DNA of 64,000 nucleotides from Saccharothrix carnea (lineage in GTDB: Bacteria > Actinomycetota > Actinomycetes > Mycobacteriales > Pseudonocardiaceae). Positions 8,772-31,385 of this stretch are shown here, piece after piece; position 1 is the stretch's first letter; the number at the start of each line of letters is the position of its first letter. Under the pieces are notes generated by a model. That model was not told where the DNA came from, did not search any database, and saw only the letters and a list, made by a program, of their open reading frames with translations. The translations under genes and the position numbers were made by a program. The stretch is taken from positions 124,001 through 188,000 of the forward strand of contig NZ_PYAX01000001.1 of the NCBI RefSeq assembly GCF_003014735.1. The letters are read 5' to 3'.

Positions 8772-11627
8772 TCAGACCGAGGTCGTGGCGCGGGTGCGGG
8801 CCAGGTGCGCCCGCACCCGGTCGGCGTCCGCGGCGCCCAGCTCGGTGAACAGCGCCAGCGCCCGCTGCCAGTGCGCCACCGCACCCGGCAGCCCCTGCCG
8901 GTCGAACACGGTGGCCAGCCGGTCGTGCGCCTGCGCCTGGTGGTACGTGCTCCCCGCGGCCGACGCGACCGACAGCGCCGTGCGGGCCGACGTGACGGCC
9001 TGCGCGCCCTCGCCCGACTCCAGCAGCACCGTCGCCAGGTCCGTGTGGCAGGTCGACTCACCGCACTGCTCGCCGACCTCGTGGTACATCGTCACCGCCG
9101 CCCGCAGCCACGACTCGGCCTCGGCGTAGCGGCGCGTCTTCAGGTACAGCAGCCCGAGGTTGTGGTGGGCGTTCGCCTCGGCCCACCGCGACCCGGCCGC
9201 CCGGCTGACCTCCAGCGCCTCCCGGTACGAGGCCTCCGACTCGTCGACCCGGCCCAGGAACTGCAGCATGTCCGCGACCGTGGTCAACGCCCTGGCCTGC
9301 GCGTTCACATCACCCGACGCCCGCGCCACCTCCAACGCCTCACGGTGCCGCGCCAGGGACTCGTCCATCCGCTGGAACTGCGCCAACGCGATACCCAGGT
9401 TGAACAACATCACGAACTTCGCCTCGGGATCACCCAGCGTCATGGCCGCTTCCAACGCGGCCTCCGTCGTGCGCAGCCACGTCGTCCGGTCCGCCCGCAA
9501 CCACAGGTACCGCGACAACGTGTACGGCAACTGCCAGGCGTGCACCAACCACGCCGGATCCGAACCCGCCGCGGCCGCCAACTCCGCCGCGGCGATGATG
9601 TTGCCCTGCTCGGCGTCGAACCACGCGTTCGCCTCCACCGAACCGTTCAGCTTCGGCACCTCCACCGGCACGTGCTCGGGCGCGACCCGCACGGTGCTGC
9701 TCCGCGTCACCGGCAGCCTGTCGTCGGCGAGGTCCGCGCAGTGCAGGTAGTAGTCGAGCATCCGGCTGGTCGCCTCGTGCCGCTCGGCCGCCGACAGCTC
9801 GGCGGCCAACGTCCGCGTGTAGACGCGCACCAGGTCGTGCGCCCCGTACCGGCCGGGCTCGTTGACCGACAGCAGGTTCGCCGCCGTCAACGCGTCCAGC
9901 GCGCGCTGCGCGTCACCGACCCGCACCTGCGCCATGGCGCCCACCACGAACGCGGTCACGTCCGGGCCGGGGTGCAGGCCGAGCAGCGCCAGCAGCCGGG
10001 CGGGCAGCGGCGGCAGCGCCCGGCGTGACGCGTCCAGCGCCGCCCGCACGGTCGAGTCCTCGTCCTCCAGGCCCAGGGCGGCCAGCCGGCCGTGCTCGTC
10101 GTCCAGTTCGGCGACGAGTTCGGCCACCCGCAACGACGGCGCGACGGCCAGCCGGGCCGCGGCGATCCGCAGCGCCAGCGGCAGCCCGTCGCACAGCACG
10201 GCCAGCCTGCGCAGCGCGGCGGCCTCCGTGGCGTCCCGGCCGGCGACCCGGCTCACCACGGCCACCGACGCGTCCGGGTCCAGCATGTCGAGCTCGACCA
10301 GCCGCGCCTCGGCGTGCGCGACCAGCCCGACCAACCGCCGACGGGACGTCACCAGCACGCACGACGGCGGTCCGGGCAGCAGCGGCAGCAGCTCGGTCGA
10401 GCCGCGGGCGTTGTCCAGCATCACCACCATCCGCCGGTCCGCGATGAGCGTGCGGAACAGCGCCGACCGCTCCTCGACCGTCACCGGGATGTCCGGCGAC
10501 GGCACGCCCAGCGTGCGCAGGAACCGGCTCAGCACCTCGCCGGCGCCCAACGGCTCCTGGTTGGGGTCGTAGCCGTGCAGGTCCACGTACAGCTGCCCGT
10601 CCGGGAAGTCCTCGCGCACGCGTTGCGCCCAGTGCAGGGCGAGCGCGGTCTTGCCCACCCCGGCCGGTCCCGTGACGACGAGGACCAGCCCACCCTCCGG
10701 GTAGGACGCCAGCAGGCCGTCCAGGCGCTTGAGCTCGTCGTCGCGGCCGATCAGGGACGCCGAGGCGCGCGGCAGCTGCGCGGGCGTGATGGCGGGTGCG
10801 GCGCCGTCGGCCGGGCGCAGCGCCATCGGCCTGGTCGGGCGGTCCGGCTCGGGGTTCTCCCCCGCCAGCACGGCCTGCTGGAGCTTGCGCAGCTCCGGTC
10901 CCGGCTCGACGCCCAGCTCCTCCACCAGCACCCGGCGTGCCTCGCGGTAGACGGCCAGCGCCTCGGCCTGCCGCCCCGCCTGGCACAGCGCGCGCATCAG
11001 CAGGCCGTGCCCGCGTTCCCGCAACGGGTGCTCGCCGACCAGCGTGGTCAGCGACGGCACCAGCTCCGCGCCCCGGCCGATCAGCAGCAGGAGTTCGGCC
11101 CGCTCCTCCAGCACGGCGAGCCTGCGTTCGGCCAGCCGACCGCGTTCGACCTCGGCGAACAGGCCCGCGACACCGCCGAGCGGTTCGCCGCGCCACAGGC
11201 CGAGCGCCTCGTCCAGCGCGGTGGCCGCGGCGATCAGGTCACCGGACGCGCGCAGCCGGGCCGATTCCGCGACGCCGCGCTCGAACTCGTCCAGGTCGAC
11301 CTGCTGCGGGTCCACCCGGAGCAGGTAGCCGTCGCCTACCGAGGTCAGCAGCTCGGCCGGGGCACGGCGGGCGCGGCTGGGTTCGAGCGCGCGGCGCAGC
11401 CCGGCCACGTAGGTCTGCACCAGGTTGACCGCGCTGGTGGGCGTGTTGTCGCCCCACACGGCCTCGATGATCTGGTCACGGCTGACCGGCGTGTTGCGGG
11501 CCAGCAGCAGCACCGCCAGCACGGCACGCTGCTTGGCGGCGCCGAGGTCGACCTCCCCGCCGCCGCGCACCGCCCGGAGCAGGCCGAGCACCTCGAACCG
11601 CAAGCGCTCGCCGCCGCCGTCTGCCAC
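8772..11627 (-). CDS. AfsR-like SARP regulator (wHTH-BTAD-NB-ARC-TPR)
   Basis: A 951-aa multidomain regulator. Residues 10-100 form the OmpR-like winged helix (AKQRAVLAVLLLARNTPVSRDQIIEAVWG), 105-250 the bacterial transcriptional activation domain (VDLDEFERGV, QAEALAVYREARRVLVEELGVEPGPEL), 285-600 an NB-ARC ATPase with Walker A GPAGVGKT near 321-328, and the last 260 residues are TPR repeats. GTG 11627 has AAGGA eight bases away. AfsR-type proteins activate secondary-metabolism genes, often downstream of Ser/Thr kinases. The gene ends 12 bp before the chitinase dre boxes and on the same strand, with no clear terminator between, so read-through into the chitinase gene is possible. Confidence 0.92.
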   Translation of the reverse strand: MADGGGERLRFEVLGLLRAVRGGGEVDLGAAKQRAVLAVLLLARNTPVSRDQIIEAVWGDNTPTSAVNLVQTYVAGLRRALEPSRARRAPAELLTSVGDGYLLRVDPQQVDLDEFERGVAESARLRASGDLIAAATALDEALGLWRGEPLGGVAGLFAEVERGRLAERRLAVLEERAELLLLIGRGAELVPSLTTLVGEHPLRERGHGLLMRALCQAGRQAEALAVYREARRVLVEELGVEPGPELRKLQQAVLAGENPEPDRPTRPMALRPADGAAPAITPAQLPRASASLIGRDDELKRLDGLLASYPEGGLVLVVTGPAGVGKTALALHWAQRVREDFPDGQLYVDLHGYDPNQEPLGAGEVLSRFLRTLGVPSPDIPVTVEERSALFRTLIADRRMVVMLDNARGSTELLPLLPGPPSCVLVTSRRRLVGLVAHAEARLVELDMLDPDASVAVVSRVAGRDATEAAALRRLAVLCDGLPLALRIAAARLAVAPSLRVAELVAELDDEHGRLAALGLEDEDSTVRAALDASRRALPPLPARLLALLGLHPGPDVTAFVVGAMAQVRVGDAQRALDALTAANLLSVNEPGRYGAHDLVRVYTRTLAAELSAAERHEATSRMLDYYLHCADLADDRLPVTRSSTVRVAPEHVPVEVPKLNGSVEANAWFDAEQGNIIAAAELAAAAGSDPAWLVHAWQLPYTLSRYLWLRADRTTWLRTTEAALEAAMTLGDPEAKFVMLFNLGIALAQFQRMDESLARHREALEVARASGDVNAQARALTTVADMLQFLGRVDESEASYREALEVSRAAGSRWAEANAHHNLGLLYLKTRRYAEAESWLRAAVTMYHEVGEQCGESTCHTDLATVLLESGEGAQAVTSARTALSVASAAGSTYHQAQAHDRLATVFDRQGLPGAVAHWQRALALFTELGAADADRVRAHLARTRATTSV

Positions 11628-12009
11628 CGACCGATCCTTCGCCGAACGTCGAGTCCCCCGACTGAGCCTAGGAGATCACTTCAGTCCGGCTCCAGTCGTC
11701 CTGTAGCCGCATTCTTACGCTAAGCGTGTCCGATCAACCACACAGGGCGAACCCCGGTGAGCGAGGTTGGACCAGACAGCGGAACCTCCGCTGCTCTCCC
11801 TGATCGACGAGGGCAGGCCGGCGTGCAAGGGGCATCCAGCCCGCGGCGGCGGAACGCCGGCCCGCCCTCGTCCCCTTCTCCACCGGAGAAGGGTCATCCG
11901 GTAGGGGATGACCCACCTCCATTGCCCTCCCCCCAGTGGAAGGGGCCGCGACCGGGATCCGAACCCCCGGCCGCGGCCCCTTCGACTACGTCCGGGGACG
12001 GTGCGCGGG
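11628..12009. other. 382-bp intergenic region with three hairpins, no gene
   Basis: Upstream of the SARP gene and downstream of the DedA gene. It holds two partly overlapping perfect 9-bp hairpins: CCCTTCTCC/GGAGAAGGG at 11873-11893 (3-nt loop) and GGGTCATCC/GGATGACCC at 11891-11914 (6-nt loop); they share the three G at 11891-11893. A third hairpin, 11940-11982, is listed separately. No convincing reading frame with a ribosome-binding site was seen. Confidence 0.6.
11940..11982 (-). terminator. terminator of the DedA gene
   Basis: An 11-bp outer stem (AAGGGGCCGCG / CGCGGCCCCTT) extended by an inner CCGGG/CCCGG stem, lying 28 bp past the DedA stop on the minus strand. It resembles a tRNA T-arm plus acceptor end, but see the rejected items. 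Confidence 0.7.
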
Positions 12010-19284: not shown

Positions 19285-19302
19285 GTGAAACAGCAGTGGA
19301 AC
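19285..19302. promoter_or_regulatory. Phased heptamers GTGAAAC/GTGGAAC upstream of lacI-type gene
   Basis: GTGAAAC (19285-19291) and GTGGAAC (19296-19302) are spaced 11 bp apart, directly after a TAACAT -10-like box (19278-19283), so they cover the likely transcription start of the LacI gene. Reverse-complement copies recur in front of the GH30 gene. Probably a shared operator. Confidence 0.5.
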
Positions 19303-19313
19303 GGGGGGCGCGG

Positions 19314-20321
19314 ATGGCCAGGGCGACGGTGCGGGACGTGGCACGGGCCACCGGGCTTTCCATCGCCACGGTGTCCCGCGTGCTCAACGGGCAGGCCAAC
19401 GTCGCCGAGCACACCCGCGAGCTGGTGCTGCGCACGGTCGCCGGGTTGGGCGCGGAGGCGCCGAGGGCGCGTGGCGTGAAGCCCGCGGGCCCGATCTGCG
19501 TGCGCTGCCCGTACCTGCTCACCGACTACTTCGGGCTGATCGTCTCCAGCGTCGCCGAGACGTTGGCGCTGCACCACCGGCAGGTGCTGCTCAGCGCGGG
19601 CGTGTCCGCGCAGCGCGAGACCGTGCTGCCGGGCCTGGCGAGCCGGTCGGACGTGGGCGGCGCGATCCTGATCCTGCCGCCGGAGCCCGCCGAGGAGCTG
19701 GTCCGGCTGCGCGACCGCCGGTTCCCGTTCGTGGTGGTCGACCCGCGCACCGAGCTGCCGCGCGACGTGGCGTCGGTGTCGGCGGCGCACTTCGCGGGCG
19801 CGCGGCGGCTGATGGCGCACCTGGTGGAGCTGGGCCACCGGCGGATCGGGATCATCGGCGGCCCCGGTGACTGGCTGGTCAGCGACGGCAGGCTGGCCGG
19901 GTACGCGGCGGCGTTGTCCGACGTGGGCGTGCTGCCGTCGGCGGAGCTGCTGCGGCACGTGGACGAGCCGACCGAGGAGAACGGCCACCTCGTCGCCCGT
20001 GACCTGCTCGGCCTCGCGGACCGGCCCACGGCGCTGGTCGCGTTCAACGACAAGATGGCGGTCGGCGCCTTGCGGGCGGCCCGGGAACAGGGCCTCGACG
20101 TGCCGGGTGACGTGTCGATCGCCGGTTTCGACGACCTCGACCTCAGCCGTGCCACGCGACCGGAACTGACCACGGTGCGGCAGCCGTTGCAGGAGATGGG
20201 CCGGATGGCCGTGACCCTGCTGATGCGGCTGCTCGACCGGCACGAGCTGGAAGCCCTGCACGTCGAGCTGGCCACGGAACTGGTGGTCAGGGCGTCCACG
20301 GGCCCCGCGCCGCGCGTCTGA
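19314..20321 (+). CDS. LacI-family transcriptional regulator
   Basis: A 335-aa regulator. Residues 3-50 are the LacI helix-turn-helix (ATVRDVARATGLSIATVSRVLNG); the rest is a periplasmic-binding-protein-like sensor (RRLMAHLVELGHRRIGIIGGPGDW, ALVAFNDKMAVGALRAAREQGLDVPGDVSIAGFDD, TTVRQPLQEMGRMA). ATG 19314 has a G-rich site just upstream; GTG 19296 in frame is an alternative but lies inside the putative operator. It sits 163 bp before the GH30 enzyme on the same strand and likely controls it and itself in response to a sugar. Confidence 0.92.
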   Translation: MARATVRDVARATGLSIATVSRVLNGQANVAEHTRELVLRTVAGLGAEAPRARGVKPAGPICVRCPYLLTDYFGLIVSSVAETLALHHRQVLLSAGVSAQRETVLPGLASRSDVGGAILILPPEPAEELVRLRDRRFPFVVVDPRTELPRDVASVSAAHFAGARRLMAHLVELGHRRIGIIGGPGDWLVSDGRLAGYAAALSDVGVLPSAELLRHVDEPTEENGHLVARDLLGLADRPTALVAFNDKMAVGALRAAREQGLDVPGDVSIAGFDDLDLSRATRPELTTVRQPLQEMGRMAVTLLMRLLDRHELEALHVELATELVVRASTGPAPRV

Positions 20322-20484: not shown

Positions 20485-22362
20485 GTGCCCTCTTCCCACC
20501 GTCGGGCTTTCATCAGCGCCGGCATAACGTTGATCACGGTCGCCGCCGCCCTCGCCGCCTCGCAGCCCGCCGCCGCGGCGGGCGAGTCCGTCAACGTCCA
20601 CCTGACCACCACCTCCGACAGCGGCGGCCGCACGGTCACCCGCGGTCTCCAGCAGCAGCCGTCGATCGCGTTCAGCTCGAACGGCGGCAGCGCGACCCAC
20701 ACCATCACCGTCAACGAGGGCACGACCTACCAGCAGTTCGAGGGCGGTGGCGCGTCGATCACCGACACCACCGCCTACCTGCTGCGCGGCGGTCCCGTCT
20801 CGGCCGCCACCCGGGACGCGGTGATGCGCAAGCTGTTCCACCCGGTCGACGGCATCGGCCTGTCGTTCGTGCGCAACCCGATCGGCGCTTCCGACCTGTC
20901 CCGGCCCGGCAACGTCTCGCTCGACGACACGTGCTGCGACCTCAACGACTGGGGCACCAACGGCTACGACACGAACGTGCGGCTGCTGACGCAGCAGGCC
21001 AAGCAGCTCAACCCGCAGCTGCGGGTCAAGGGCGTGCCGTGGAGCGCGCCGGGCTGGATGAAGGACAACGGCCGGATGGACCAGATGGGCTGGCTCAAGT
21101 GGGAGTACGCCCCCGTGTACGCCCAGTACTTCGTCAAGTACGTGCAGAGCTACCAGGCGGCGGGCATCCCGATCGACTACGTGTCCGTGCAGAACGAGCC
21201 GAACTGCTGCCAGGCGTCCAACCCGACCGCGATGAACTACCCCGGCATGAGCTGGAACCCGGCGGGCCTGGTCGAGTTCACCAAGAACAACCTCTACCCG
21301 GCGTTCCGCGCGGCGGGCATCAACACCAAGGTGCTGGTGCACGACTGGAACTACGGCGACTACGCCAACTTCGGCTCCGGCGTGCTGAACGACGCGGGAG
21401 TGCGCAACGACCCCCTGTTCGGCGGTATCGCGTGGCACGGCTACTTCGGTGACCCGGCGGTCGGCACCCAGGTGCACAACCAGTACCCGAACGTGCGGCA
21501 GTTCAGCACCGAGCACTCCGGCGGCACGTGGATCTCGAACCAGCACAACGAGGACATGGCCGACATCGTCAACTACGCCCGCAACTGGAGCTCCAGCCTG
21601 GTGAAGTGGAGCCTCGCGCTCAACCAGAACATGGGCCCGCACAACGGTGGCTGCGGCACGTGCACCGGCCTGATCACCGTGCAGGAGGGCGGGTCGCGGG
21701 CCGGCCAGGTCGACTACACCGTCGAGTACTACACGACCGGTCACCTGACGAAGTTCGTCAAGCCGGGCGCGTACCGGATCGACTCGACCGCGAACGGCAC
21801 CGTGCAGAACGTGGCCTACCGCAACCCGGACGGCTCCAAGGCCCTGATCGCGCACAACGGCGGCACGTCGTCCCAGTCGATCCGGGTCAACTGGGGCAAC
21901 CAGTCGTTCACCTACACCCTGCCCGCCCGCACCTCGGCGACGTTCACCTGGCAGGGCACGCCCGGCAACGGCGGTGGCACCGGTGGCAGCGCAATCACCG
22001 GCCTGGCGGGCAAGTGCGTCGACGTGGCGGGCGGGAGCAGCGCGGACGGCGCGGCGGTGCAGCTGTACACGTGCAACGGCACCGCGGCGCAGCAGTGGTC
22101 GCGGCCCGGTGACGGCACGCTGCGCGCGCTGGGCAAGTGCCTCGACATCAAGGACCGCGGCACCGCGGACGGCGCGCAACTGCAGCTGTGGAGCTGCGCG
22201 GGCGGCGCGAACCAGCAGTGGACCCACACCTCGGGCAACGACCTGGTGAACCCGGCGACCGGCAAGTGCGTGGACGTCACCGGCAACACCAGCGCGGACG
22301 GCACCAGGTTGCAGATCTGGACCTGCACCGGCGGCGCCAACCAGAAGTGGACCATCGCCTGA
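20485..22362 (+). CDS. Secreted GH30 glycosidase with ricin-type lectin domain
   Basis: A 625-aa exported enzyme. Signal peptide residues 1-32 (RRAFISAGITLITVAAALAASQPAAAA). GH30 catalytic region about 60-500: YQQFEGGGASITDTTAYLL, VKGVPWSAPGWMKDNG, the acid/base Glu in VSVQNEPNCC and the probable nucleophile in FSTEHSGG. A Gly-rich linker leads to a C-terminal ricin-B/CBM13 trefoil (GKCVDVAGGSSADGAAVQLYTC and two similar QxW-type repeats). GH30 members include beta-1,6-glucanases and glucosylceramidases; a fungal wall glucan is a reasonable substrate guess. GTG 20485 has AAAGGAG six bases away. Downstream of the LacI regulator with phased repeats in the promoter. Confidence 0.9.
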   Translation: MPSSHRRAFISAGITLITVAAALAASQPAAAAGESVNVHLTTTSDSGGRTVTRGLQQQPSIAFSSNGGSATHTITVNEGTTYQQFEGGGASITDTTAYLLRGGPVSAATRDAVMRKLFHPVDGIGLSFVRNPIGASDLSRPGNVSLDDTCCDLNDWGTNGYDTNVRLLTQQAKQLNPQLRVKGVPWSAPGWMKDNGRMDQMGWLKWEYAPVYAQYFVKYVQSYQAAGIPIDYVSVQNEPNCCQASNPTAMNYPGMSWNPAGLVEFTKNNLYPAFRAAGINTKVLVHDWNYGDYANFGSGVLNDAGVRNDPLFGGIAWHGYFGDPAVGTQVHNQYPNVRQFSTEHSGGTWISNQHNEDMADIVNYARNWSSSLVKWSLALNQNMGPHNGGCGTCTGLITVQEGGSRAGQVDYTVEYYTTGHLTKFVKPGAYRIDSTANGTVQNVAYRNPDGSKALIAHNGGTSSQSIRVNWGNQSFTYTLPARTSATFTWQGTPGNGGGTGGSAITGLAGKCVDVAGGSSADGAAVQLYTCNGTAAQQWSRPGDGTLRALGKCLDIKDRGTADGAQLQLWSCAGGANQQWTHTSGNDLVNPATGKCVDVTGNTSADGTRLQIWTCTGGANQKWTIA

Positions 22363-22438: not shown

Positions 22439-23821
22439 ATGACACGACTCCTCGTGCTCGTCGCGGCCGTGCTCGCGGCCTGCCTGACCGCGCCCGCGGC
22501 CCAGGCCTCGTGGACGCTGACCACCGCGCAACGGCAGGCGTACCTGAACTACTACGCGCCCGTCATCCTCAAAAGGGGTGACGAGAACGACGGCAAGCAG
22601 GGCCGGGACTGGCTCGCGAACTTCGACTTCGACCGGGACGGCAACTACGCCTCCAACCGCGCGAACTGGAAGCAGGTCCCGCAGTTCGTCGCCGGGACCG
22701 CGGGCTACGAGCGGTGGCGCGTCCGGCCCACCCTCTACACCGCGCTGCTGGAGTTCACCGACAACGGCAGCAAGTCGTTGGTGCTGCTGTACCACGTCTA
22801 CAACGCGGCCGACAAGGACGGCGACGAGATCCACGACTGGGAACGGGTGGAGATCGTGGTGCGCGGGGTGACCGGCACGCCGGGCAGCGCGGGCGAGTCG
22901 TTCGGCAACGCGACCGTGACCCACCACAAGGACCACGTCATGCGGCGCTCCTACGACCCGGACGTCAACTTCCTCCAGACCGCCGACGGCAGGCACCTGC
23001 TGCTGTGGCAGGCCGACGAGAGCGACTTCGACCTGCCCGACGCCGGGCCGCACGCGCACGAGCTGCGGTTCGTCACCGACACCTGGGCCTACGTCTCGGG
23101 CCGCATGGCGTCCGGTGCGAACGCCGAGGTGCGGATCTCCGGCGCGGACAACCGGCGCAACGTGCACTACGCGTTCGTGCCGGAGGGCGCGGCGGGGGCG
23201 GTGGCCGCGCTCGGCGCGGTGCCGCTGACGTTCGCCAACGCGTCCGCGCAGGCCAGCCGGGTCGACAACGGCACGAAGGTGGCGTGGCCGCGGGTCAAGC
23301 GGCTGACCTACGAGTTGCAGGACCTGGCCGACATCGTGCCCACGCACTGGGCACAGTCGGCGTGGCAGCGGCACTGGCTGGCCACCGACGTGGTGGACGT
23401 GCGGTTCGAGACGCCCGCGCTGGGCATCGGGACGGGCGTGCAGCGGTTCTACAACCAGTCCCGTGACGACGCCGCCTCCGACCTCACCGACGGCCGCGAG
23501 GGGTACCTGTCCAAGGCCTGGTTCTTCGGCGCGTACTCGGCGGAGCTGGACGAGGACACCCCGTCCGGGTCCGACGACTTCGGCGGGTTCGCGGGCACGG
23601 GCCTGGACAGCTCGGGCCGCAGCCGCGGCGCGGTGAGCGGTGACCCGGCCTCGCACGGCGCGTACTGGCGGCAGCACGAGTACTTCGTGCACTCGGGCGG
23701 CATGGACGACCGGGCGAGCCACGAGGTGGGCATTTGGCTGCCACCGGGCTGGCACCTGGCGGCCAACGGCGGCTTCGACGGCCGGTGGCAGCCGTTGTTC
23801 GACGACCGGCCGGCCGCCTGA
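22439..23821 (+). CDS. Secreted protein of unknown function
   Basis: A 460-aa exported protein: signal peptide at residues 1-23 (LLVLVAAVLAACLTAPAAQAS), mature chain rich in Trp and Asp. The segment VLLYHVYNAADKDGDEIHDWERVEIVV near 120-145 contains an HDWE motif as in NPP1 necrosis-inducing proteins and a calcium-loop-like DKDGDE, but the overall similarity is too thin to assign that family. THHKDHVMRRSYDP and GIWLPPGWHLAANGG are other striking blocks. ATG 22439 lies 37 bp after the GH30 terminator and lacks a good ribosome-binding site. Its position between two glycan enzymes suggests an extracellular role in polymer attack; this is inference only. Confidence 0.8.
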   Translation: MTRLLVLVAAVLAACLTAPAAQASWTLTTAQRQAYLNYYAPVILKRGDENDGKQGRDWLANFDFDRDGNYASNRANWKQVPQFVAGTAGYERWRVRPTLYTALLEFTDNGSKSLVLLYHVYNAADKDGDEIHDWERVEIVVRGVTGTPGSAGESFGNATVTHHKDHVMRRSYDPDVNFLQTADGRHLLLWQADESDFDLPDAGPHAHELRFVTDTWAYVSGRMASGANAEVRISGADNRRNVHYAFVPEGAAGAVAALGAVPLTFANASAQASRVDNGTKVAWPRVKRLTYELQDLADIVPTHWAQSAWQRHWLATDVVDVRFETPALGIGTGVQRFYNQSRDDAASDLTDGREGYLSKAWFFGAYSAELDEDTPSGSDDFGGFAGTGLDSSGRSRGAVSGDPASHGAYWRQHEYFVHSGGMDDRASHEVGIWLPPGWHLAANGGFDGRWQPLFDDRPAA

Positions 23822-23906: not shown

Positions 23907-25679
23907 CTAACCGGTCGCGCGATAAGCCTCGCCGGCCCGGTTCGGCGTCCCTCCGGGCACGTACAGCCCCGTGCCCGGCTTGTCGGCGGGGAGCGCGAAC
24001 CACGCGTAGCGCTCCAGGTAGGGCAGGTCTTCGAGCATCCGTGACGACGCACCGGCGAAGTCGGCCAACTGCTGCGCGTCCGGGTAGCGCACACCGCCGC
24101 CGGAGAAGTCCATCAGCGAGTACTCGGTGAGCCAGATCGGCAGGCCGTAGCGGGCGCGCACGGCATCGAGGTAGTTCTTCAGGTGGCCGACAGCGGCCGG
24201 GCCGAAGTCAGAGCCGTACCAGTGCAGCGTGATGAAGTCGACCCGCAGGCCGCGCTCGCGGGCACCGGCCATGAACCGGTCGAGCCAGCCGCCCGGCTTG
24301 TCGCCGCTGTGGGCCACGGCGGGGCTGCCCAGGCGCATCCCCGTGGCCTGGAGCTGAGGCCACAGGTCCAGCGCCTGCTCCACGGTCAGGTTCGACTGCT
24401 TGGCGAGGTCCGGTTCGTTGAAGCCGAGCAGCGTGGTGCCCTGCGCCTTGACCGCTTGGAGGTTCGCCGGGGTCACCGTCTTCGCGCCCCAGATCATCGG
24501 CACGTACTCCACGCCGGCCGGCGGCTGCACGTTCTCCCTGGTGGGAGCCCAGTTGTAGAACCAGCCGGCACCGACGTCGGACAACGCCCGCGTCACGCCG
24601 TCGAAGTGCCAGGTGCTGACGCCCTTCTTGACCGACTTGGCGACGGGCTGCACGACCGGTGCCGCTGCGGCCGGTGTCGTCGTCGTTGTCGTTGTGGTCG
24701 TCGTTGTCGTGGTGGTGGCGGTGGTGGACGGCACGGTCGAGGGCAGCCGCGTGGTCGTGGCGGCGACGGGGGCGGCCATCGGCGTCGGTGTCGGCGTCCG
24801 CTCACCGGGCAGCAGCACGACCGCACCCGCCACCGCCGCCACGGCCGCCGCCGCGATCAGCGGCTTGGTGGCCGCGTGCGCCCAGAAGCCCTTCTTCACC
24901 ACCGCGACCACGGGCTCCGCGCCGAGGTCGAACCCGGCGGGCAGCGGCACGAGCGGGATCCGGGCCAGCAGGCCGTCCACCGCGGCCAGGTCGTCGAACC
25001 CGCGGGCACACCGGCCGCACTCCCGCGCGTGCCGCACGATCCGCTTGCGCCACAACGCGTTCGGCTGCCCGTCCCAGCCGGCGAGCACGTCGGCCAGCGC
25101 GCCGCACCGCGGCAGGGCCAGCACCCGGACGACCACCCGGGCCCCGTCGAGCTGGGCCTTCATCCGCTGCACCCGCACGGCCGCGTGCTGCGGCGTCAGG
25201 TCCAAGGCCTCGGCGAGCTCGGCCCGGGTGATCCGGCCGACCTGCTCCAGCCACCACAGCGACAGCAGCTCGCGCTCGTCGTCACCGATCCACCGGGTCG
25301 CCGCCAGCACCTCGCGGCGCTGGCCGGTGAGCTGGAGCCGGGTGATGGCCAGGTCGGCGAAGTCCGCGCCCGGGTCGGCGACGTCGGCCGGTTCGGCGTC
25401 GGCGAGCGGCAGCCTGGTCCGGTGGTGGTCGCGCACCTGGTTGAGCGCGATGGCCAGCAGCCACGACCGGAACGCCTCGGGCTCCCGCAGCTTCGGCAGG
25501 CCGTTCAACGCGCGGAGCATGGTCTCCTGCACGACGTCGTCGGTGTCCGGGTGGCCCGCCAACGCGTGACCCACCACGTTGTAGACCAGCGGCAGGTAGG
25601 CGGCCACCAGCGCGTCCAACGCGCCGGGCTCGCCCCGCTGCGCGGCCGTCACCGCCGCGGCGTCCCCTGGTGTGCGCAT
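23907..25679 (-). CDS. ECF sigma factor - zinc-finger - TM - GH128-like glycosidase fusion
   Basis: A single 590-aa frame. Residues 15-90 are sigma region 2 (LVAAYLPLVYNVVGHALAGHPDTDDVVQ...) and 130-185 region 4 (WWLEQVGRITRAELAEALDLTPQHAAVRVQRMK). Residues 192-240 look like an anti-sigma zinc finger: Cys192, then His217-x3-Cys221-x2-Cys224. One membrane helix spans about 274-292, followed by a Pro/Thr linker (305-335, ending in a long Thr run). Residues 352-588 are a GH128-type (Asl1-like) beta-1,3-glucanase-like barrel with LLGFNEPD (Glu422), LHWYG and PIWLTEY (Glu519), both catalytic Glu present. Topology would place the sigma part inside and the hydrolase outside. ATG 25679 has AGAGGA. 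No separate anti-sigma gene is adjacent. Confidence 0.88.
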   Translation of the reverse strand: MRTPGDAAAVTAAQRGEPGALDALVAAYLPLVYNVVGHALAGHPDTDDVVQETMLRALNGLPKLREPEAFRSWLLAIALNQVRDHHRTRLPLADAEPADVADPGADFADLAITRLQLTGQRREVLAATRWIGDDERELLSLWWLEQVGRITRAELAEALDLTPQHAAVRVQRMKAQLDGARVVVRVLALPRCGALADVLAGWDGQPNALWRKRIVRHARECGRCARGFDDLAAVDGLLARIPLVPLPAGFDLGAEPVVAVVKKGFWAHAATKPLIAAAAVAAVAGAVVLLPGERTPTPTPMAAPVAATTTRLPSTVPSTTATTTTTTTTTTTTTTPAAAAPVVQPVAKSVKKGVSTWHFDGVTRALSDVGAGWFYNWAPTRENVQPPAGVEYVPMIWGAKTVTPANLQAVKAQGTTLLGFNEPDLAKQSNLTVEQALDLWPQLQATGMRLGSPAVAHSGDKPGGWLDRFMAGARERGLRVDFITLHWYGSDFGPAAVGHLKNYLDAVRARYGLPIWLTEYSLMDFSGGGVRYPDAQQLADFAGASSRMLEDLPYLERYAWFALPADKPGTGLYVPGGTPNRAGEAYRATG

Positions 25680-25747
25680 ACCGTTCCTCTCGGCCGAGTC
25701 GGGCTTACCTCACCGGAGACTCCGCGGACGCGCCACGATAACGACAA

Positions 25748-29066: not shown

Positions 29067-29627
29067 TCAGGGGTTGATCAGCGTGGCGAGGTCCACGGTA
29101 ACCGGGAAAGGTTCGGGAACCTCGACCTTCCCGGTGCCCTGGGCGATCTGCTTGTACCTGCCGGCGACCAGGCTGAACGCGATGAGCGTGGCCGGCTCGT
29201 CCAGTTCCACCACCCAGTAGTGCGGGATACCGACCTTGGCGTACTCGATCGGCTTGAAGACGCGGTCTGTCCGGCCCGTTCCCGGCGACACGATCTCCAC
29301 TGCCAATCGCAGGTCATCGGGGTTGAACCGACTCGGCTGCTCCCAGTAGCGCTCGGCCGGCACCACCACGACATCGGGTGCGCGCAGTGAGAGCGGAGGC
29401 CCCGGGTCTATCACGACATCGACGTCCTGGACCGCCACCATCCCCGCAGGCAATTGCTCTTTCAGGCAGCTACGGAGGTTCGCCATCGCCACTTGGTGCT
29501 TCGGTGCCGGCCTTGGGGCCACCAGCAAGACTCCTTCGACCAGCTCGAAGTGGCGCGACTTGTCCTCCGGAAGCGCGTCCCACTCCTCAAGCGTGAACAA
29601 GTGGTCAGGCCAGGGCATGGTGCTCAT
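29067..29627 (-). CDS. Uma2-family putative PD-(D/E)XK nuclease, copy 1
   Basis: A 186-aa protein with the Uma2/DUF820 pattern: FTLEEWDALPEDKSRHFELVEGVLLVAP, then LRAPDVVVVP (the PD), LAVEIVSPGTGRTDRVFKPIEYAKVGIPHYWVV carrying the (D/E)xK-type residues. The fold is nuclease-like but the cellular role is not established. ATG 29627 is preceded by GAGGTG; a longer open frame upstream runs into the duplicated tesB fragment and is not real. About two thirds of residues match copy 2. Confidence 0.85.
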   Translation of the reverse strand: MSTMPWPDHLFTLEEWDALPEDKSRHFELVEGVLLVAPRPAPKHQVAMANLRSCLKEQLPAGMVAVQDVDVVIDPGPPLSLRAPDVVVVPAERYWEQPSRFNPDDLRLAVEIVSPGTGRTDRVFKPIEYAKVGIPHYWVVELDEPATLIAFSLVAGRYKQIAQGTGKVEVPEPFPVTVDLATLINP

Positions 29628-29674
29628 CGCGGCCACCTCTCTTGCTCCATCGACTGCGCAGCGTAGCTGGTCGA

Positions 29675-29742
29675 CTACAGGACCCGAAGCAGGCCCTCCT
29701 GCACCACGGTAGCCACCAACTGGCCGTCGTGGCTGTAGAAGC
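29675..29742 (-). pseudogene. tesB 3'-end fragment
   Basis: The last 22-23 codons of the acyl-CoA thioesterase gene, identical to 30462-30529 and cut at 29742, left by the tandem duplication. It has no start. Confidence 0.85.
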
Positions 29743-29755
29743 AGGTACCCGGCCG

Positions 29756-29836
29756 CCGACCTGGGCCCGGTCGTCACCGCCGTCCTCGACGACACCTGCG
29801 GAAACCTGATCCAGCTCGCCACCGTGAAGTAGCCAC
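29756..29836 (+). pseudogene. VOC gene 3'-end fragment
   Basis: An exact 81-bp copy of 28970-29050, holding the last codons and stop of the VOC gene; no start. One mismatch just before the identity begins. Left by the tandem duplication. Confidence 0.85.
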
Positions 29837-29847
29837 GCGCTGACCGT

Positions 29848-30408
29848 TCAGCGGCTCAGCAGTTCGTCCAACTCGAACACCACCGGGAAGGGGTTGGGGA
29901 TCTCCACCTTCCCGGTGCCACCGCCTACGCGCTCGTAGTAGCCGTCGACCAGGGTGAAGGCGGTGAGCGTCACCGGGTCGTCGATCTCCACGAGCCAGTA
30001 GTGCGGGATGCCGGCCGCAGCGTACTCGGCGGGCTTCATCACGCGGTCCGTGCCGCCGGTGCCCGGCGATACGATCTCGACTGCCAGCAGGACGTCGTCC
30101 GGGTTGAAGCGCTTCGGGTACTCCAAGAAGCGCTCGTGGGGGACGATGACCATGTCCGGTGCGCGCATGGTGATCGGAGCCACCGGCTTGACCAGGACAT
30201 CCACATCCGGGACGGCCACGACGTCCCGCGGCAGTTGTTCGTCCAGCCAGGTGCCCAGCCGTTTCATGGCCACCTGGTGCTTGGGTGCCGGTTTCGGGGC
30301 CACGAGCAGGATCCCTTCGACCAGCTCGATGTGGTACGACTCGTCTTCCGGAAGCGCGTCCCACTCCTCCAAGGTGAGCAAGTGGTCAGGCCAGGGCATT
30401 GCGCTCAT
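29848..30408 (-). CDS. Uma2-family putative PD-(D/E)XK nuclease, copy 2
   Basis: A 186-aa paralogue of copy 1, same length, same start context. LTLEEWDALPEDESYHIELVEGILLVAPKPAPKHQ, MRAPDMVIVP and LAVEIVSPGTGGTDRVMKPAEYAAAGIPHYWLV keep the presumed active-site residues. Differences from copy 1 are scattered along the gene and mostly conservative, so both seem to be under selection. ATG 30408 is used; the longer frame beyond it is antisense to tesB. Confidence 0.85.
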   Translation of the reverse strand: MSAMPWPDHLLTLEEWDALPEDESYHIELVEGILLVAPKPAPKHQVAMKRLGTWLDEQLPRDVVAVPDVDVLVKPVAPITMRAPDMVIVPHERFLEYPKRFNPDDVLLAVEIVSPGTGGTDRVMKPAEYAAAGIPHYWLVEIDDPVTLTAFTLVDGYYERVGGGTGKVEIPNPFPVVFELDELLSR

Positions 30409-30461
30409 CGCGGCCCACCTCCCATGACGCACTCCATCGACTGCGCAGCGTAGCTGGTCGA

Positions 30462-31385
30462 CTACAGGACCCGAAGCAGGCCCTCCTGCACCACGGTAGC
30501 CACCAACTGGCCGTCGTGGCTGTAGAAGCGGCCGGTGGCCAGGCCGCGGGCACCGGAGGCCGACGGCGAGGCGCAGTCGTACAGGAACCACTCGTCGGCG
30601 CGGAACCGGCGGTGGAACCACATGGCGTGGTCCAGGCTCGCGCCCAGGACCTTGTCCGTGCCCCAGTACACCCCGTGGCGCACGAGGACGGAGTCGAGCA
30701 GGGTCATGTCCGACGCGTAAGCCAGCACGCACACGTGCAGCAGGTCGTCGTCCGGCAGCTTGCCGTCCGCCCGCATCCACACCTGGCTGCGCGCCTCGCC
30801 CGGCCCGTCCTCCCGCGCGCGCCACGGCGGCTCGGTCACGTACCGGATGTCGATCGGCCTCGGCAGCCGCGCCATGCCGATCTTCTCCAGGTACCCGGCC
30901 GCCGACTCGGCGTAGGTGGGCAGCGAGGTCGGCTCCGGCACGGTCGGCATCGGCTCCTGGTGGTCCAGGCCCGGCTCGTCCAGCTGGAACGACGCCGACA
31001 GCGCGAAGATCGCCTTGCCGTGCTGGACGGCGACCACGCGCCGGGTGGTGAACGAGCGCCCGTCCCGGATCCGGTCGACCTCGTACACGATCGGCACGGT
31101 CGGGTCGCCGCCGCGGATGAAGTACGAGTGCAGCGAGTGCACCCGGCGCTCGGGCGGCACGGTGCGGCCGGCGGCGACCAGGGCCTGGCCGGCGACCTGC
31201 CCGCCGAACACCCGCACGGGCGACTCGGCGGGCGACACCCCGCGGAAGATGTTCTCCTCGATGCGCTCCAGGTCGAGCAGCGCCACGAGGCGGTCGAGCA
31301 CGGGCTGCCCGTGCGGCACACCGTCGGCGTCCAGGGGAACGTCCGAGAACTCGGCGGTCGCCGCGGCGCGGGCAGCCTCGGTCAC
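30462..31385 (-). CDS. tesB: Acyl-CoA thioesterase II
   Basis: A 307-aa double-hotdog thioesterase that hydrolyses acyl-CoAs. Seen: ENIFRGVSP, RVFGGQVAGQALVAAGRTVPPERRVHSLHSYFIRGGDP, RSFTTRRVVAVQHGKAIFALSASFQ, and SLDHAMWFHRRFRADEWFLYDCASPSASGARGLATG with the catalytic Asp region. GTG 31385 has AGGAG five bases away and lies 8 bp after the pyruvate kinase stop, so both form an operon. Its last codons are duplicated downstream. Confidence 0.93.
   Translation of the reverse strand: MTEAARAAATAEFSDVPLDADGVPHGQPVLDRLVALLDLERIEENIFRGVSPAESPVRVFGGQVAGQALVAAGRTVPPERRVHSLHSYFIRGGDPTVPIVYEVDRIRDGRSFTTRRVVAVQHGKAIFALSASFQLDEPGLDHQEPMPTVPEPTSLPTYAESAAGYLEKIGMARLPRPIDIRYVTEPPWRAREDGPGEARSQVWMRADGKLPDDDLLHVCVLAYASDMTLLDSVLVRHGVYWGTDKVLGASLDHAMWFHRRFRADEWFLYDCASPSASGARGLATGRFYSHDGQLVATVVQEGLLRVL

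Follow-up and report, generated by a model that had tools for sequence, protein, structure and literature searches.

The 590-aa protein encoded on the minus strand of the window (the whole 64,000-nucleotide stretch of Saccharothrix carnea DNA that was analysed) is probably a single-chain transmembrane switch belonging with the ECF52/ECF53 proteins, a self-tethered sigma factor that reads beta-1,3-glucan and drives promoters of the form GTTATC-N16/17-GTCTCC. As assigned from its sequence, the protein begins with an ECF sigma part (residues 1-180), continues with a zinc-ligand segment (183-240), a membrane helix (~271-292), and a Thr-rich linker, and ends with a GH128 domain (349-590). The parts of the gene and its predicted promoter are the following:

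23907..25679 (-), complete CDS, with its stop codon, for the tethered sigma factor of 590 aa (open frame and homologues)
25413..25610 (-), sigma region 2, residues 24-89 (Pfam PF04542 Sigma70_r2, E = 1.4e-14)
25140..25331 (-), sigma region 4, ~residues 117-180 (TIGR02937 span, model helices, profile similarity to PDB sigma factors)
24960..25133 (-), ZAS-like zinc-ligand segment, residues 183-240 (C192, H217, C221, and C224 kept in 60/60)
24804..24869 (-), membrane helix, ~residues 271-292 (hydropathy; model helix 272-285, low confidence)
24636..24803 (-), Thr-rich linker, residues 293-348, predicted extracellular (sequence)
23910..24635 (-), GH128 domain, residues 349-590 (PDB 6uaq match; catalytic-site Glu 422 and 519)
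25737..25742 (-), predicted -35 element GTTATC, exact
25715..25720 (-), predicted -10 element GTCTCC, exact; spacer of 16 nt, distance to the ATG 35 nt

Positions 23907-25679 of the minus strand form one open frame of 590 aa with a third-position GC of 0.95. A preliminary description of this DNA had proposed the frame without giving a strand, and the frame is real. Sigma70_r2 matches the protein with 54 bits against a cut-off of 24, and the NCBIfam ECF model TIGR02937 matches residues 20-177 (66.7 bits, cut-off 42.9). The Pfam region-4 models alone find no match in the 590-aa protein; region 4 is included in the TIGR02937 span, and the profile match to PDB sigma factors reaches position 181. 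Both of the sigma regions that had been proposed, 2 and 4, are present, and with region 3 absent the protein is an ECF sigma factor. A full-length model built with 40 sequences (pLDDT 80, pTM 0.48) has confident helices in the sigma part, except at residues 92-115, and in the zinc segment. The barrel is also confident, while residues 243-348 are of low confidence, and the relative placing of the parts is not reliable because the pTM is low.

The zinc segment carries four putative ligands spaced C192-x24-H217-x3-C221-x2-C224, exactly the residues named in the preliminary description. The finger motif of ZAS and zf-HC2 domains is formed by an upstream His or Cys ligand followed by Hx3Cx2C, and the ligand pattern of the 590-aa protein conforms to it. 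The spacing also resembles that of redox-sensing zinc anti-sigma factors. In the full-length model, the segment forms helices at residues 193-199, 208-220, and 224-228 with high pLDDT. Among the Pfam profiles by which the parts were expected to be recognised, Sigma70_r2 and Glyco_hydro_cc match the window protein, and the region-4 models and zf-HC2 (E<=1) do not. On one distant module, zf-HC2 is found with an E of 0.0092, a match that falls short of the cut-off. No anti-sigma factor was matched in a sequence comparison of the segment with the PDB, and an 81-aa model of the segment, itself poor (pLDDT 62), had no match in a fold comparison with the PDB.

The one membrane helix that had been proposed corresponds to a single strong hydrophobic stretch at residues 274-292 (mean Kyte-Doolittle 2.35), with lysines just ahead of it. 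Across 60 sequences (59 homologous loci and the window protein), the mean hydropathy of this stretch is at least 1.6 in 58, and the minimum is 1.52. The Thr run noted earlier is the Thr-rich linker at residues 293-348; in the 60 sequences the linker has 48-111 residues (median 59 aa) and a median of 71% P/T/S/A. The outer part is a GH128-like barrel, as had been suggested. PDB 6uaq, which we take to be a GH128 endo-beta-1,3-glucanase from an Amycolatopsis, aligns end to end with residues 349-590 (E = 8e-95), and Pfam Glyco_hydro_cc matches residues 370-585 (E = 5.6e-46). In the PDB alignment, relatives with solved structures have conserved Glu at the positions of E422 and E519, in agreement with the two catalytic Glu of the preliminary description; the E519 position is Gln in 6ufl and Ala in 6uas, which are near-identical chains. 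Homology across the whole barrel and the presence of both catalytic Glu assign the domain to GH128. Beta-1,3-glucan is one of the main components of fungal cell walls.

The homologue set consists of the best 80 loci from a scan of genome contigs, all from other genomes and read as actinobacterial; the nearest homologues among them are in Saccharothrix genomes. The sigma part, the finger, and GH128 occur in one frame in 59 of the best 80 loci, so the domain order recurs elsewhere. The remainder comprises 10 loci with the sigma part and zinc segment but a different outer part, and 11 with GH128 and no sigma part. Residues C192, H217, C221, C224, E422, and E519 are identical in all 60 sequences. 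At E<=1e-30, 15 of the 396 genomes in a sample of the phylum have the sigma-zinc module; at E<=1e-25, the counts are 34 of 200 for the family to which the window belongs and 45 of 394 for its class. These samples overlap, and the window's own genome is counted in each.

Outer domains were scanned in 68 of 69 loci among the matches listed, the exception being L131, which is without an outer part. The commonest type is CAP (cysteine-rich secretory protein), with 27 loci, followed by 21 Glyco_hydro_cc including the window gene, 1 AbfB, and 1 Beta_helix. Fusions of the module to CAP are seen at L072, L077, L078, L082, L086, and L126, among others. An extracellular domain of ~200 residues without a Pfam match is common to seven loci (L097, L105, L106, L117, L120, L121, and L157), and we will use the term "unnamed" for this type. 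The outer part is exchangeable, since the same sigma-finger-membrane module carries CAP, AbfB, beta-helix, and unnamed domains too. A FastTree tree was built of 137 modules (80 GH128, 37 CAP, 7 unnamed, 1 AbfB, 1 beta-helix, and 11 other). On it the outer type switches 9 times, where the least possible is 5 and the shuffled mean is 51; weak branches make up 51 of the 132 inner ones, and several of the end branches are long. Read from this tree, GH128 may have joined the module once and the other types may have been exchanged a few times.

The predicted promoter was first spotted by eye upstream of the module genes, as the pair GTTATC and GTCTCC, and was then scored with spacers of 13-19 nt in 69 of 70 possible upstream regions, omitting L023, whose start codon is unassigned. 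The pair reaches at least 10/12 bases in 66 of the 69 regions, compared with 44 of 1380 mononucleotide-shuffled copies, but the 66/69 score is no independent test because the pattern was drawn from the same, related regions. An exact 12/12 pair is present in 38 regions, namely 30 of 59 of the GH128 type, 8 of 9 of the CAP type, and none of the single other type. The spacing is 16 nt in 56 regions and 17 nt in 10. Two modules of the unnamed type, L120 and L106, are also preceded by the pair (sites L172 and L178). The 590-aa gene itself has an exact pair, its predicted self-promoter. Upstream of 11 stand-alone GH128 genes, L075 scores 11/12, L083 scores 10/12 at a doubtful site inside a frame, and nine score at most 9/12.

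An exact search of 50 genomes reached via the loci (49 with a GH128-type gene and 1 with a stand-alone GH128) finds 80 sites in 38 of them, against 5 for the reversed control. By string match, 27 sites are promoters of module genes, one of which (L303) has an upstream string identical to that of L082, a CAP-type gene. Eight protein families are preceded by 37 of the 53 other sites and a thaumatin-like protein by one more; 15 are without a clear target. The families, whose representatives were scanned with Pfam and whose other members were assigned by BLAST, with secretion judged from the starts by eye, include AfsR/SARP-like regulators (13 sites), GH16 with ricin lectin (7) or F5/8C (3), GH128 with F5/8C (4), DUF1996 (8 in total, 5 alone and 3 with F5/8C), a PATR-repeat protein (1), and an Alginate_lyase (1). 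Fifteen of the 53 sites thus stand before beta-1,3-glucanase-type proteins (GH16, GH128) or the thaumatin-like protein. Two of the GH16 targets were compared with the PDB, and their closest matches are laminarinases and beta-1,3-glucanases, with best E values of 1e-75 and 1e-64. The thaumatin-like target (L049, 8218-9204, minus strand) has an exact pair, and a sigma gene of the GH128 type lies only a few kb away.

The chance level of such sites has been estimated from a sample of 200 genomes of the window's family, in which the exact pattern occurs 50 times and the reversed pattern 7 times. Seventeen of these sites are in 12 of the 26 genomes with a strong module match, and 33 are in 29 of the 174 others. 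Because the 174 genomes without a strong match hold 33 sites, the reversed control understates chance, which is nearer 0.19 sites per genome. Apart from the sigma promoters, the 50 genomes hold 1.06 sites per genome against this background of ~0.19. The 15 unexplained sites, which include one in antisense at the GDPD gene of a Saccharothrix and one at an F5/8C-like frame that ends early (L315), are about as many as the background predicts. Of 22 family-sample sites read among 23 loci listed, all in genomes other than the window's, none precedes any of the nine target families and 2 precede the module. The degenerate form GTTRTY/RTCYCC shows no excess, with 10-18 sites in 6 genomes of the genus that have the gene and 8-19 in 4 that lack it.

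A further set of 34 genomes is mixed in outer domain and includes 4 that lack the gene; it holds 25 exact sites against 4 for the control, and 11 of the sites precede the module. The other targets are of the Alginate_lyase type (L176, L185, and L188, scanned; L189, by eye) and the PATR type (L180 and L187, scanned; L181, by eye), together with GH128+F5/8C (L191) and DUF1996+F5/8C (L182). Because several of the 34 genomes carry two or more modules, matching outer types to targets is no more than suggestive. DUF1996 proteins preceded by the pair, some with F5/8C, were observed at L269, L270, L275, L288, L292, L182, L307, L310, and L313. The pair is common to beta-1,3-glucanases and DUF1996 proteins, which may point to a beta-glucan role for DUF1996.

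In the window's own genome, exact sites with a 16/17-nt spacer number two, one at the gene's own start and one antisense at a GDPD gene. The latter is present in relatives too; as a target it was set aside as chance, as it sits in coding DNA at the gene's end. With one mismatch allowed there are 6 sites against 2 for the control. The genome has no GH128 gene besides the 590-aa one, and its five GH16 genes have no site of at least 9/12. Of 14 more sites from the one-mismatch or degenerate searches, 10 lie under a long frame (GC3 at least 0.88), 3 are ambiguous, and one precedes a TetR-like regulator gene, as judged by eye. A looser 10-base core gives 99 sites against 31 for the control; 30 of these were read, of which 15 do not lie in a clear coding frame, and by eye none precedes a glucan-enzyme-like start. 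Within the window, 33 matches with a 16-nt spacer and at most 3 mismatches compare with 29.75 expected. One of them, with 2 mismatches (11885-11912, minus strand), is 257 nt ahead of the first start of an AfsR/SARP-like gene (8772-11627, minus strand; BTAD and TPR repeats). Over its first ~330 residues, the encoded protein shares 45% identity with the regulator that is often predicted as a target in Actinoplanes relatives. This gene is a weak lead at best, because two in-frame stops intervene and chance matches are expected. Beyond the gene itself, these searches gave no convincing target in the window's own genome, and the promoter in this clade may be looser than they detect.

The upstream neighbour of the gene, on the same strand, is a LysE-type exporter. 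The downstream neighbour (22439-23821, plus strand) is convergent and encodes 460 aa with a signal-peptide-like start and no Pfam match. No recognisable anti-sigma gene adjoins the 590-aa frame, as the preliminary description had remarked. The search for sigma targets near the GH30 gene that it proposed lends the idea no support: the sole exact site in the window with a 16-nt spacer is the gene's own, and the 500 nt upstream of the GH30 gene contain no promoter-like match (at most 3 mismatches, 16-nt spacer). The GH30 glycosidase (20485-22362, plus strand) has a ricin-type lectin domain and a signal-like start, and lies beside a LacI-type regulator (19296-20321). Elsewhere in the window, two adjacent putative Uma2-type endonuclease genes are found at 29067-29822 and 29848-30825 (minus strand).

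In the mechanism that we propose, the zinc segment would clamp the sigma part at the membrane, and the outer domain would bind, and probably also cut, beta-1,3-glucan of fungal, oomycete, plant, or bacterial origin. Binding or tension would then lead membrane proteases to cut the protein and free the sigma part; this proteolytic release follows the model put forward for ECF52 proteins. The freed sigma part would start transcription at GTTATC-N16/17-GTCTCC, at its own gene first, giving positive feedback. In relatives with a GH128 outer domain, the predicted targets would add GH16, GH128 with added sugar-binding domains, thaumatin-like, DUF1996, and AfsR/SARP-like proteins, and the outer sensor would be a tethered copy of the enzyme kind being switched on. 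The preliminary description had pictured a sigma factor tethered by its own anti-sigma domain and reporting on extracellular beta-glucan. Of this picture, the domain order, the topology, and the beta-glucan link are supported by the residues conserved in 60/60, by 6uaq, and by the predicted promoter that relatives have ahead of genes of the beta-1,3-glucanase type. Inhibition by the zinc segment, the glucan signal, membrane proteolysis, and the activation of glucanase genes are steps that we infer.

Alternatively, the GH128 domain could be a surface enzyme or anchor while the sigma part answers a different cue, for instance stress on the envelope or a redox change at its zinc site, with the glucan link being incidental. 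The retention of both catalytic-site Glu, as in a working enzyme, the exchange of the outer domain for CAP, AbfB, beta-helix, or unnamed domains on the same module, and the ligand spacing reminiscent of redox-sensing factors would all fit such an arrangement. We nevertheless consider it unlikely, as relatives with a GH128 outer domain have predicted promoters at beta-1,3-glucanase-type genes. Somewhat less likely still is that the pair belongs to another, unlinked sigma factor controlling both sets of genes, the tethered protein being a target and not the driver. The link between the sigma part and the promoter is a prediction, and 29 of the 174 family genomes without a strong module match do hold exact sites. 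On the other hand, the pair precedes modules with different outer domains (GH128, CAP, and unnamed), self-activation is common among ECF genes, and the family-sample sites (0/22 at target families, a count of sites and not of the gene content of the genomes) argue against an independent regulator of the targets. The joining of a sigma gene and a glycosidase gene by an assembly or reading artefact, against which the preliminary description had cautioned, has a negligible probability because the same fusion recurs in one frame in other genomes (59 of the best 80 loci) and GH128 is the outer domain on 80 of 137 typed modules.

Returning to the self-tethered switch, a broader reading can be put forward tentatively. 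The modules could form a family of self-tethered sigma factors, each sensing with a still-catalytic enzyme and turning on secreted enzymes that act on that enzyme's substrate, the module being kept and the sensor exchanged. GH128 would go with beta-1,3-glucanases and thaumatin-like proteins, CAP and unnamed domains with Alginate_lyase-type or PATR-repeat proteins, and the sensor, not the shared promoter, would decide which polymer opens the regulon. To our knowledge, the sensing by bacteria of insoluble outside polymers such as fungal wall glucan has been worked out mostly in Clostridium. The present gene would by itself encode the whole sensor-to-sigma pathway; its predicted promoter is sharp, and the predicted target set looks antifungal.

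The preliminary description had left open whether this combination of domains was already described. ECF52 and ECF53 proteins have been reported with a C-terminal zinc finger and a membrane helix in one protein (PMC8999054), some with predicted glycosyl hydrolase domains (PMC10766802), and the architecture is not new, because these reviews already list it. The groups are actinobacterial and are defined by an extension of up to ~400 residues that holds one or two membrane helices along with a zinc finger (PMC8999054). The 590-aa protein has an extension of ~410 residues, one helix, ligands kept in 60/60, and actinobacterial homologues, in keeping with this definition, and ECF53 is its likely group. 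It shares with ECF52/ECF53 the sequence of sigma factor, zinc finger, helix, low-complexity stretch, and extracellular carbohydrate-related domain (PMC8999054, PMC5826349). The studied ECF52 member, SCO4117 of Streptomyces coelicolor, has a carbohydrate-binding module and a proline-rich stretch, where the 590-aa protein has GH128 with catalytic-site Glu, and its putative motif, CSGYN-17bp-SRHA, is unlike GTTATC-N16/17-GTCTCC (PMC5826349). Release by proteolysis has been proposed for ECF52 (PMC5826349) and is expected for ECF48, ECF52, and ECF53 (PMC8999054). The 590-aa gene allows a direct test of this proposed mechanism.

What is new here is the predicted GTTATC-N16/17-GTCTCC promoter with its predicted beta-1,3-glucanase-type targets. 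Among the matches listed from open-licence papers, the main ECF classification papers aside, we found no account of this promoter, of actinobacterial beta-1,3-glucanases under the control of an ECF sigma factor, or of ECF together with GH128. The GH128 enzymes of the PDB 6UAQ group have the same domain with both Glu, and in the 590-aa protein this domain is tethered by a helix to a sigma factor. The signal of IutY of Pseudomonas putida arrives via the outer-membrane receptor for aerobactin, and IutY is without a glycosidase domain, unlike the 590-aa protein. Both proteins hold sigma factor and inhibitor, a putative one in the 590-aa protein, in one chain, and IutY (ECF243) is released by Prc and RseP (PMC8999054). 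In Clostridium thermocellum, RsgI senses extracellular substrates and RseP cuts its membrane helix (PMC12203970), while SigI promoters, active in a test host, stand before sigI itself and polysaccharide-degrading genes (PMC4711584). SigI and RsgI are two proteins, whereas the 590-aa protein is a single chain with an ECF sigma part and a zinc-ligand segment, and the likeness is in mechanism only. At that level, the predicted promoter and target pattern supports a self-tethered sigma factor that would read out beta-1,3-glucan in a SigI/RsgI-like manner.
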